From: Acetobacter sicerae
GTDB taxonomy: Bacteria; Pseudomonadota; Alphaproteobacteria; Acetobacterales; Acetobacteraceae
Length of the DNA stretch: 64,000 nt
NCBI RefSeq assembly: GCF_011516765.1
Contig: NZ_JAAABN010000008.1
Span: 62,001 to 126,000, forward strand
Direction of reading: 5' to 3'
The notes beneath the pieces were generated by a model. The model saw only the letters and a program-made list of their open reading frames with translations. It was not told the origin of the DNA and made no database searches. Positions 27,594 through 49,368 of the stretch are shown here, piece by piece. The number at the start of each line of letters is the position of its first letter. The first letter of the stretch is position 1. A program made the position numbers and the translations under genes.

Positions 27594-28328
27594 TCAGGCG
27601 GCGACGGTTTCCTGTTGTTCGGCCGGTGCTGCGGCTTCATTGGTTTCCAGACGCTGGAACTGCTCGCGCAGCATGTAACCCCGACCCCAGACGGTGGTGA
27701 TGAGGTTGCCTGCGCCCGCCGCCTGCAACTTTTTCCGCAGCTTGCAGATGAAAACATCGATGATCTTCATCTCCGGTTCATCCATGCCGCCATAAAGATG
27801 GTTCAGAAACGCATCCTTGGTCAGAACCATCCCCTTACGCAGGACGAGCAGTTCCAGAATGGCATATTCCTTACCCGTCAGATGGACAGGCGCATCGTTC
27901 ACCATGACTTCGCGGCTGTCGAGGCTGAGCTTGAGCGGTCCCACACGCAGGGTCGGCTCGCTGAAGCCCTTGGAGCGCCGCAGAATGGCCTGCATCCGCG
28001 CGACCAGTTCATCGGGATCAAAGGGTTTCGTCATGTAGTCGTCCGCGCCGATGGAGAAGGCTTTCACCTTTGCCTGCGGGCGCGTCAGGCCGGAGAGAAC
28101 CACCATCGGGGTGGTGACGCGTGCTGCGCGGGCCCGGCGGACAACCTCGTATCCTTCGATGTCAGAGAGCATCAGCTCAAGGACAGCGAGATCATAATCA
28201 TAGTGCCGGAGCATCTCGACGGCTTCTTCGCCGGACTGGACATGATCGACTGTGAAACCAGCCCCCTTCATGATCTGGGAGATTTCACCGACAGAGGAGA
28301 GATCGTCTTCAACGAGCAGAACGCGCAT
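27594..28328 (-). CDS. ctrA: CtrA-type cell-cycle response regulator with Glu at the phosphoacceptor position
   Basis: 244 aa OmpR-family regulator; from the ATG at 28328 (AAGGG upstream) it starts MRVLLVEDD like Caulobacter CtrA and aligns without gaps through the receiver. The DNA-binding half is nearly diagnostic: HLTGKEYAILELLVLRKG, FLNHLYGGMDEPEMKIID, VFICKLRKKL. In Caulobacter the phosphoacceptor is Asp51; here the codon is GAG, giving Glu51 (DLAVLELMLSD). Glu7/Asp8/Asp9, the switch Ser and Lys (MTKPF) are kept. Asp51 to Glu is used as a phosphomimetic in Caulobacter, so this protein may be constitutively active. The C-terminal tail is Glu/Ala/Gln-rich. Divergent from fliI. Confidence 0.93.
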   Translation of the reverse strand: MRVLLVEDDLSSVGEISQIMKGAGFTVDHVQSGEEAVEMLRHYDYDLAVLELMLSDIEGYEVVRRARAARVTTPMVVLSGLTRPQAKVKAFSIGADDYMTKPFDPDELVARMQAILRRSKGFSEPTLRVGPLKLSLDSREVMVNDAPVHLTGKEYAILELLVLRKGMVLTKDAFLNHLYGGMDEPEMKIIDVFICKLRKKLQAAGAGNLITTVWGRGYMLREQFQRLETNEAAAPAEQQETVAA

Positions 28329-28512
28329 GATGGTAACCCTTGGTTCGTTGTTGATCATTAGTTACCACCATGGGTTGTATTGGTCCACGGAAATTTCACG
28401 TAAAGATTGTATAAAGATTTTTGTTAACCGTCATAAACACGCAAATTGTCTTTTTTTTTATCTATTTGACCCAGAAACACGGAACCCGAATGGTCTCAAC
28501 CGGAGAAATCTT
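28329..28512. promoter_or_regulatory. ctrA/fliI divergent promoter region with CtrA half-site
   Basis: 184 AT-rich bases between the two starts. TTAACC at 28424-28429 matches a CtrA half-site; the second half (TTAA 7 nt away) is degenerate (AAAC). It could allow autoregulation of ctrA and control of fliI. CGGAGAA at 28501 is the ribosome site of fliI. Confidence 0.4.
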
Positions 28513-29922
28513 ATGAAATCGGATTTCCTCACGCAGGTTAATGCAACCTGTGCGAGTATTCCTGCTGCTGTTGCGACCGGGCGAATCACGTCGCTATCGG
28601 GGCTCGCCGTGACGGTCACGGGTCTTGGAAGTCTGGCGTCGGTCGGCGACCGGGTGTTCCTGATGCGGCGGAACAGCGCGGCGATTCCTGCGGAAATCAT
28701 AGGATTCTCCGGCAGCCACGCTCATGCCATGGCCTTTGGCAGCCTTGATGGGCTGGCAAGCGGAAGCGAGGTCCAGTTTCCTGTCTTTATTGGCTCCCGT
28801 GCCCCGAAACCGGGAGGAAGCCTGCCTGTGTCGGACGGATGGATCGGACGGATCATTGATCCTCTCGGTCGTCCGCTCGACGGCAAGGGCCCCTTGCCGC
28901 CGGGTCCTGTGCCGCGACCGGTGCGTACGGCGCCCCCGGATGCGACCCTGCGCGCCCGTCTGGGGCCGAGAATCGATCTTGGTGTTCGGGCCATGAACCT
29001 TTTCACGACCTGCCGGGAAGGGCAGAGACTCGGGCTTTTCGCCGGGTCAGGCGTGGGAAAATCCACGCTGATGTCGATGCTGGCCCGTAATACCGCCTGC
29101 GATGTGGCCGTCATTTCCCTTGTCGGGGAGCGGGGAAGGGAAGTCCGCGAGTTTGTAGAGGACGATCTGGGACCGGAGGGACTCGCCCGTTCGGTTGTCA
29201 TCGTAGCGACCTCGGATTCCCCTCCGCTCATGCGGCGGGAAGCCGCCTATGCGGCGCTCACCGTCGCCGAGTATTTTCGTGACGAAGGCAAATCGGCGCT
29301 TCTGCTGATGGATAGCGTCACCCGGTTCTGTCAGGCGCTGCGTGAAATCGGTCTGTCCGTGGGTGAACCTCCGGCCACGCGAGGCTATCCTCCTTCGGTC
29401 TTCGCGGAACTGCCTCGACTGCTGGAACGGGCCGGACCCGGCATTGTGCGTCCTGATGGTTCCGCCGGGCAGATCTCCGCGCTTTTTTCGGTTCTTGTGG
29501 AAGGCGATGATCAGAACGAGCCCGTAGCCGATGCGGTGCGTGGCATTCTGGACGGGCATCTGGTTCTGGACCGGCGCATCGCGGAGACAGGCCGTTACCC
29601 GGCTATCGACATTCTGCGCTCACTGTCCCGTACTGTGCCCGGCTGCAATTCCGCTGATGAAAATGCGCTGACCCGGCGCGCCCGCGCCATTCTTGCCACT
29701 TATGCAGAGATGGCCGACATGATCCGCCTGGGCGCCTATCGGCCCGGAGCCGATGCGGCGGTTGATGAAGCCATCAAGCTCCGACCGGCCATTGAGGCCG
29801 TCCTTTCGCAAGGCCGCCACGAACGCTTCACGCTGGAGCAGAGCTTTGCCGCCTTGAGAGACGCACTTGCCGAAACACCCGTCCAGGAAAACTTGGTCGC
29901 GGCCGCGATGGCCGTTTCCTGA
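28513..29922 (+). CDS. fliI: Flagellar export ATPase FliI
   Basis: 469 aa ATPase that powers export of flagellar rod, hook and filament proteins. Walker A is LFAGSGVGKSTLMSML; the family signatures SLVGERGREVREF, LLLMDSVTRFCQALREIGL and GEPPATRGYPPSVFAELPRLLERAG follow, then the C-terminal AYRPGADAAVDEAI. The frame is open from 28252, inside ctrA on the other strand, but the ATG at 28513 has a good ribosome site and fits the family start. Followed by fliJ. Confidence 0.95.
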   Translation: MKSDFLTQVNATCASIPAAVATGRITSLSGLAVTVTGLGSLASVGDRVFLMRRNSAAIPAEIIGFSGSHAHAMAFGSLDGLASGSEVQFPVFIGSRAPKPGGSLPVSDGWIGRIIDPLGRPLDGKGPLPPGPVPRPVRTAPPDATLRARLGPRIDLGVRAMNLFTTCREGQRLGLFAGSGVGKSTLMSMLARNTACDVAVISLVGERGREVREFVEDDLGPEGLARSVVIVATSDSPPLMRREAAYAALTVAEYFRDEGKSALLLMDSVTRFCQALREIGLSVGEPPATRGYPPSVFAELPRLLERAGPGIVRPDGSAGQISALFSVLVEGDDQNEPVADAVRGILDGHLVLDRRIAETGRYPAIDILRSLSRTVPGCNSADENALTRRARAILATYAEMADMIRLGAYRPGADAAVDEAIKLRPAIEAVLSQGRHERFTLEQSFAALRDALAETPVQENLVAAAMAVS

Positions 29923-48826: not shown

Positions 48827-49368
48827 TGGGGTCATGGCCGATATTGGCGGACAGGACAGGACTCTATGGTTTTTGTGCAGAATGTGCTGCGGAGAAGCGG
48901 TGGATAAATACAAGGTTCCGGGTATTGCCTGATGTTTCGGAGCGCCCGTCTGGGCACGCTGTACTCATCAAGACCCGGAGCAACCAGAAACTGGGAAAAG
49001 CGTTCTGTCTGATGCGATGAAGCGAATGTCTTGTTGGGGTTTGCTGGGTTTTATCGCGTGTGACGCTTCTTGTTGCGGCTATACCCGCAGAGTCCGGACT
49101 GCTTCAGGAAAGTTATGCCGAGATAAGGTGTGTAGTGTAAAAATCTTCGGTAATTTTAATTTTTACTTAAAATTAAATGGTATGACAAATACATCATGTA
49201 TCTGTTTTTTAACTGATATCATTCTGTTAAAGATAGGTAGCACAGTAGAGGTGTGAAACAGGGTTTGTTATTTCTTCTGGTGGCGTGTAGTTCATCCTGT
49301 GATAAAACACCACAGCATAAGCAGTCCCGCGAGACGACTGACGGGAGGCATTGAGGAGAGAGCACCGA
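48827..49368. other. Spacer without a supported gene
   Basis: About 540 bases, becoming AT-rich from 49130 to 49260. A 79-codon frame at 49017-49256 (Cys-rich, several rare-looking codons) has no ribosome site and is not called. No RNA gene or palindrome was recognised. The promoter of the transpeptidase gene should lie at its right end; GAGGAGAGAG is that gene's ribosome site. Confidence 0.4.

Follow-up and report, generated by a model that had tools for sequence, protein, structure and literature searches.

CtrA is the textbook example of a cell-cycle regulator controlled by phosphorylation, and the ctrA gene of Acetobacter sicerae encodes glutamate at the very position that receives the phosphate. 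This raises the question of how such a regulator functions, and of what has become of the CckA-ChpT relay to which CtrA belongs in other Alphaproteobacteria. An earlier note on this DNA had suggested a CtrA that is always on and uncoupled from the relay. Here, we followed residue 51, the remaining phosphate pocket and the relay proteins through the genus, the family Acetobacteraceae and beyond.

A CtrA with glutamate in place of the phosphorylated aspartate

The gene lies at 27594..28328 on the minus strand of the window, i.e., the whole stretch of 64,000 nucleotides that was analysed, and encodes an OmpR-type response regulator of 244 amino acids plus stop, as indicated by Pfam and NCBIfam models. 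Response_reg and Trans_reg_C are both above the Pfam cut-off, and the best family is the NCBIfam CtrA model NF045991, with 343 bits (slightly below its cut-off of 350) against 172 for the next family. An OmpR-type receiver joined to a winged helix, with the CtrA model as best match, thus places the protein among the CtrAs. It is the only CtrA found in this genome (4.03 Mb, 99.98% complete), where the second-best match is just 35% identical. The divergent gene fliI (28513..29922, plus strand; TIGR03498 FliI above cut-off) is its neighbour, an adjacency typical of CtrA that is shared by many other genomes, Caulobacter sp. AP07 (L042) among them.

In the alignment with the AP07 protein, codon 51 (28176..28178, minus strand) reads GAG, Glu instead of the phosphorylatable Asp of a CtrA, and this replaced acceptor also places the protein among the pseudo-receivers, the atypical OmpR-type regulators. 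Asp occupies the aligned position in all seven paralogues of this genome whose loci were read. Codon reading showed that the acidic pair E7-D8 of the pocket (28305..28310, minus strand) and the pocket lysine K101 (28026..28028, minus strand) are retained; the alignment agrees for the pair and also shows S79. The earlier note, which had described Glu51 (GAG) in an otherwise preserved receiver followed by an intact DNA-binding domain, was therefore correct on these points. Overall, the protein resembles the CtrA of Caulobacter and other Alphaproteobacteria, the output of the CckA-ChpT-CtrA relay, in domain order, similar length, fliI neighbour, DNA-binding domain and all pocket residues except 51. 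It differs from them by Glu51 and by its setting, in which ChpT was not found and CckA, DivK and CpdR were not identified.

The CtrA of Acetobacter musti (L009) is 84% identical to that of the window and, across the columns used for the tree, identical to that of genus member G019. Glu51 is present in 15/15 genomes of the window's CtrA group, the window's included, and is encoded by GAG in 5 and by GAA in 10. The occurrence of Glu in all 15 genomes, through two different codons, excludes the base-call error that would have undone the earlier observation, and the probability of any sequencing or assembly error at codon 51 is negligible.

Residue 51 and ChpT across the Acetobacteraceae

CtrA was recovered at E ≤ 1e-60 in 46 of 49 genus genomes and at E ≤ 1e-50 in 262 of the 299 genomes of the family sample. 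Three small genomes of the genus (G038, G039 and G041; 1.5, 1.7 and 2.6 Mb) gave no CtrA match at E ≤ 1e-42. From genus and family, 183 loci were fetched. Three short or broken CtrAs (L384, L387, L388) were dropped ahead of all counts, and five doubtful ones (L389, L390, L394, L395 and L396; partial or only ~40% identical, with none, D, R, R and S at residue 51) were removed, leaving 175 clear CtrAs. The 46 genus CtrAs carry Glu at residue 51 in 20 cases, Asp and Thr in 8 each, His in 5, Ser in 4 and Asn in 1.

ChpT was searched for with PF10090 in 80 genomes and with a profile made from 13 Acetobacteraceae ChpTs in 299 genomes. The profile matched 185 genomes at E ≤ 1e-5, of which the 176 below 1e-10 were counted as ChpT-positive; the nine matches at 1e-5 to 1e-7 were read by us as cross-hits to the ATPase domain. 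Of the 14 family genomes in its own sample for which the profile finds ChpT, PF10090 recovered 13, missing G210. In the genus 34 genomes were searched, 26 of them with PF10090 alone. None of these 34 passed, and the other 15 of the 49 genus genomes were assigned as ChpT-negative by genus. In the window genome, where the earlier note had left the presence of chpT to be checked, neither PF10090 nor the 13-sequence profile gave a match above cut-off.

Residue 51 follows this distribution. Among the 72 ChpT-positive genomes with a clear CtrA, 71 have D51 and one has E51 (G179). The 103 ChpT-negative genomes with a clear CtrA (88 searched and 15 assigned by genus; 108 with the doubtful loci) have 56 E, 26 D, 8 T, 5 H, 4 S, 2 A and 2 N; without the 15 genus-assigned genomes, the remaining 88 have 51 E, 23 D, 5 H, 3 S, 2 T, 2 A and 2 N. 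An intact pocket (D51, an acidic residue 7, D8 and K101) is found in 70 of the 72 ChpT-positive rows (the exceptions being L168 and L214; D8 is present in 71/72 and K101 in 72/72) versus 14 of the 103 ChpT-negative rows. Glu51, known to the earlier note from one organism, is thus common well beyond a single species: it is widespread in the Acetobacteraceae, reaching 17 of the 24 non-Acetobacter genera of the ChpT-negative set, and belongs to a more general erosion of the pocket.

The 14 ChpT-negative genomes with D51 and an intact pocket count against our main reading, in which relay loss would have led to a phosphorylation-independent CtrA. Seven of them are Acetobacter (L103-106 and L108-110), four of which were searched for ChpT; the others are G061 (99% complete), G146 (100%), and G086, G088, G122, G134 and G304 (77-90%). 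G179 (L168, L285) is the only genome with both ChpT and E51; it is 88% complete and gave no CckA match at 1e-45. It also holds a second CtrA-like match.

Among named loci, the best 80 matches have D at residue 51 in 78 cases and E in two (A. musti L009 and a Geminicoccaceae MAG, L086). The genomes behind 50 of these 80 loci were searched with PF10090, which was above cut-off in 46, only just in L065 and through a partial gene in Caulobacter AP07. The four genomes below it are the two with E51, the 2.3 Mb MAG L047 (D51) and the Bradyrhizobium draft L056 (D51); ChpT thus went undetected in 2/2 E51 and 2/48 D51 genomes, the latter 48 being from outside the family. L086, an 8.5 Mb MAG with E51 and no ChpT above cut-off, is an apparent parallel case outside the Acetobacteraceae.

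Relay gaps in the Rhodospirillales were already noted in passages published in 2010 and 2021. Excerpts of PMC8116508 give chpT, cckA and divL in only 27-36%, against 72-82% for ctrA, gcrA and ccrM, with detection named as a possible cause. The erosion of the target residues in CtrA bears on this published doubt, as it speaks for a real loss of the relay in Acetobacteraceae.

CckA, DivK and CpdR in the window genome

To place CckA, the best kinases of 30 genomes and two from the window genome were compared. Nine proteins (from G102, G078, G092, G210, G105, G183, G197, G109 and G230) are 47-63% identical to L296 or L298, and the others 30-44%. With a stretch of L296 as query, many genomes gave matches at 1e-74 to 1e-156, the window genome one at 2.0e-52, and 5/8 genus genomes none at 1e-45. 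The split is not as clear-cut as the one obtained with ChpT: the ChpT-positive G123, G131 and G149 reach just 1e-64 to 1e-72, and matches at 1e-65 to 1e-67 also come from ChpT-negative genomes, e.g., G073 and G070.

By identity, E-value and model score, no kinase of the window genome could be assigned to CckA. On a CckA model, kinase L267 reaches 316 bits, a margin of 2.5 over a general hybrid-kinase model, compared with 429-490 bits for four family CckAs and 1065 for Caulobacter AP07 on its own model, and its reading as a much changed CckA is ambiguous. It belongs to a cluster of the window genome at G000:C2:323141-327890 (L263, L267, L380), in which hybrid kinases are encoded together with a receiver protein. 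The 746-aa hybrid kinase L265, whose best PDB match is the CckA structure 5idj, was rejected as CckA: it is 33-35% identical to L295, L296 and L298, below the range of the nine Acetobacteraceae CckA-like proteins among themselves, and PRK13557 fits it better (288 bits) than the CckA models (257 and 226).

Response regulators of the window genome comprise at least 29 matches (one further, C7:189087, was missed by that search), and neither DivK nor CpdR was found among those matched. The only two single-domain regulators found have CheY as best model, ahead of CpdR and DivK (98 and 72 bits, with CpdR at 55, all below the model cut-offs), and they adjoin cheA and cheB. Of the genes that the earlier note had listed besides chpT, divK and cpdR thus went unfound, and cckA comes down to the ambiguous L267. 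Taken together with the ChpT searches, these comparisons leave the uncoupling of CtrA from the CckA-ChpT relay well supported at the level of gene content.

Order of events in the CtrA tree

A tree of 177 rows was built by a quick method with the pocket columns excluded and with SH-aLRT supports only; L133 and the five doubtful rows are absent from it. One clade (support 87) unites 93 ChpT-negative rows and contains no ChpT-positive row. Its earliest branches are g18, followed by g56 and g71 (6 rows, one genome being 73% complete), in which no ChpT was above threshold and D51 is kept together with Q7 or G8. A clade of 87 rows (support 86) comes next, where E51 is widespread. The T, H, S and one N residues and the Acetobacter D51 group all fall within a single Acetobacter subclade (30 rows) that has long branches. 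Outside the 93-row clade, no ChpT was above threshold in G128 (E51, H8), G049 (A51, N8, A101; ChpT profile 3.4e-6) and L086 (E51), and G100 and G140 (D51, damaged pocket) also lie there; long branches make the positions of these outlying rows unsure. G049 (L245), from another genus of the family, still has fliI next to ctrA.

The bulk of the association between ChpT and residue 51 stems from the one clade. An independent-pairs test found only 2-3 supported pairs, none contrary, and was not significant (p 0.5) with so few loss events; its second counts drop 15 rows, a hand-made list of less complete genomes that includes G179.

Read with its moderate support, the tree suggests the order relay loss, pocket damage, D51E and further decay. 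The CckA-ChpT relay would have been lost in the common ancestor that acetic acid bacteria share with some neighbouring genera of the family, an absence within the limits of the searches that is firmer for ChpT than for CckA. The acidic pair would have broken first, in the early branches still carrying D51, before D51 changed to Glu in the main clade. Later changes to T, H, S and N and apparent returns to D would fall mostly in the one Acetobacter subclade.

Erosion of the phosphate pocket and selection on the receiver

Conservation was compared over positions 1-122 of the receiver region between 57 ChpT-positive genera and 16 E51 genera outside Acetobacter (L133, L391 and the five doubtful rows are left out of the tables, and g40 and g81 also out of the E51 set). 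Of the 61 positions conserved at ≥85% in ChpT-positive genera, 34 are still at ≥85% in E51 genera and 11 are kept in under half of them: 8, 14, 34, 39, 50, 51 (by construction of the E51 set), 55, 63, 80, 116 and 120. For example, D8 falls from 98% to 0, R14 from 88% to 0, P55 from 100% to 19% and G80 from 95% to 25%. Mean retention is highest in alpha4-beta5-alpha5 (0.82 vs 0.67-0.72 elsewhere), which is the dimer interface of the OmpR-type subfamily (PMC3960148, in excerpt). The receiver would thus retain its fold and this dimer face.

At the level of rows, D8 is kept in 6 and lost in 34 of the 40 E51 CtrAs of the ChpT-negative set outside the window's group, position 8 taking S, N, P, T, G or Y where it is replaced. 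The window's group is less eroded, with D8 in 15/15 and K101 in 14/15. These differences bear on whether CtrA is still phosphorylated, on Glu51 or on another residue, by a different kinase or by a small phosphodonor such as acetyl phosphate, of which acetic acid bacteria could hold much. The E7, D8 and K101 kept in the window's group would suit such chemistry, as would the seven Acetobacter species with D51 and an intact pocket. The loss of D8 from most other E51 rows argues against it, given that an acidic residue of this kind is needed for Mg in receivers (excerpt of PMC9430884). The residue proposed in the earlier note, Asp54 of the SDIEGYE stretch, is really Asp56; it was rejected as a new phosphate acceptor, being conserved in D51 CtrAs as well. 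Glu has been shown to be phosphorylatable, though the authors of PMC4395418 state, in the part available, that they know of no example from bacterial signalling. We consider continued phosphorylation very improbable.

Whatever its chemistry, the receiver of the window's group is under purifying selection: dN/dS is 0.051 in the receiver (86 of 91 pairs in range) and 0.030 in the DNA-binding domain (80 of 91), so the receiver still has a function. The Acetobacter group with D51 goes against a simple picture, with 0.053 in the receiver and 0.093 in the DNA-binding domain; these two values were set aside, as the codons had been compared without gap handling. The C-terminal Ala-Ala (27597..27602, minus strand, in the window) is present in 15/15 CtrAs of the window's group, in 47 of 72 ChpT-positive rows and in 8 of 79 other ChpT-negative rows. 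In Caulobacter CtrA this ending is the ClpXP signal; its retention allows a proteolytic control in the window's group, though CpdR was not found.

A probable phosphorylation-independent CtrA

Judging from these sequence patterns, the window CtrA probably functions without a phosphate switch. We regard it as likely that, after loss of the relay and erosion of the pocket, CtrA became a phosphorylation-independent, pseudo-receiver regulator of the OmpR type. CtrA would have stayed under strong purifying selection while its phosphate chemistry was released, Glu51 would probably hold an active-like state, and the level of CtrA, governed by synthesis and perhaps by proteolysis, would determine output. 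Thus, the uncoupling proposed in the earlier note stood (ChpT not found, no assignable CckA, CheY-like single-domain regulators); its always-on state, through Glu51 mimicking phospho-Asp, is plausible. Glu can indeed mimic phospho-Asp, and Glu alone is often not sufficient to activate receivers (PMC4395418, in part).

Glu51 may instead have no positive role, the pocket having drifted after relay loss. CtrA would then act via a receiver that is constitutively dimeric or via its DNA-binding domain, and Glu would be just one of several residues tolerated at the site. Other ChpT-negative relatives have T, H, S, N, A or D at position 51, K101 is kept in 0/21 ChpT-negative rows that have neither D nor E, and ChxR with its Glu kept DNA binding after mutation to Asp or Ala (PMC4395418, excerpt). 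A mere tolerance sits poorly with the presence of E in 17 of 24 non-Acetobacter ChpT-negative genera and with its persistence in the window's group through synonymous GAG/GAA changes, while position 8 varies; the rest of the pocket kept in the window's group (D8, K101) also speaks against an idle Glu. This explanation seems to us rather unlikely.

A phosphorylation-independent CtrA would have known counterparts. ChxR of Chlamydia trachomatis and HP1043 of Helicobacter pylori share the OmpR/PhoB architecture, ChxR also having Glu at the acceptor site, and both are described as constitutively active dimers (excerpts of PMC3960148 and PMC4395418). They differ in that here the conversion of a relay-controlled regulator can be traced, the window copy keeps the remaining pocket, and its activity without phosphate is a prediction. 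Most E51 CtrAs also resemble aspartate-less receivers and pseudo-receivers in having mostly lost the second acidic residue: in Asp-less receivers Glu is the commonest replacement (26%) and this residue is acidic in only 29% (PMC4395418, in excerpt). CtrA is not mentioned in the searched text of PMC4395418 or PMC12632262. The same substitution has been made in the laboratory, where stabilised CtrA(D51E) is active in Caulobacter (passage of PMC5189948) and D51E serves as the phosphomimetic CtrA in Rhodobacter capsulatus (passage of PMC6363796); here it is natural, fixed, and without a detected relay.

The literature on CtrA, ChpT and CckA in Acetobacteraceae and acetic acid bacteria, as far as accessible and with few subscription papers covered, yielded no report of a replaced CtrA acceptor. 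The replaced acceptor site would thus be the new element here, relay gaps in Rhodospirillales and pseudo-receiver OmpR-type regulators having been known before. With the relay apparently gone and the regulator kept, the Acetobacteraceae form a natural series through which the purpose of phosphorylation can be addressed directly. The series also bears on how a response regulator can outlive its kinase, and on how acetic acid bacteria time their flagellar and cell-cycle genes. Tentatively, a whole clade could have turned its cell-cycle master regulator from a phosphorelay switch into a factor that is constitutively active and controlled by dosage. Living genera would then still display the intermediates, and Geminicoccaceae would provide a parallel case.

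The ctrA-fliI region

In the genus, E51 is found in all 15 genomes with fliI beside ctrA, and among the remaining genus loci that span ≥3 kb, 0/15 have fliI there. Flagellin, sought with PF00669 at E ≤ 0.001 and with weak matches counted, was detected in 15/15 fliI-linked E51 Acetobacter (weakly in G035), 8/8 T51 (weakly in G043), 4/4 S51 and 1/1 N51 genomes, and in 1/5 H51, 1/8 D51 and 1/5 other E51 genomes. With this distribution the residue-51 classes do not simply track motility, and flagella were rejected as their cause.

An imperfect palindrome, TACCACC-ATG-GGTTGTA, lies at 28363..28379, 35-51 bp before the ctrA start. It has one match in the window and 0 in 100 shuffles. Similar sequences occur in relatives, both in Acetobacter and in other genera, partly in ChpT-positive genomes too; it is possibly an operator or an RNA element of ctrA. 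A second conserved block at ~28380-28413, about GTCTACGGAAATTTCACGTAAAGCGTGTATAAAGA with variation, is present between ctrA and fliI in E51 Acetobacter loci and contains no canonical CtrA box.

Canonical CtrA boxes were absent between ctrA and fliI, and TTAACCAT was absent from the window. TTAA-N7-TTAA, the target-site motif of CtrA, occurs at a single site in the 64-kb window, at 49156-49170, where 0.03 would be expected.
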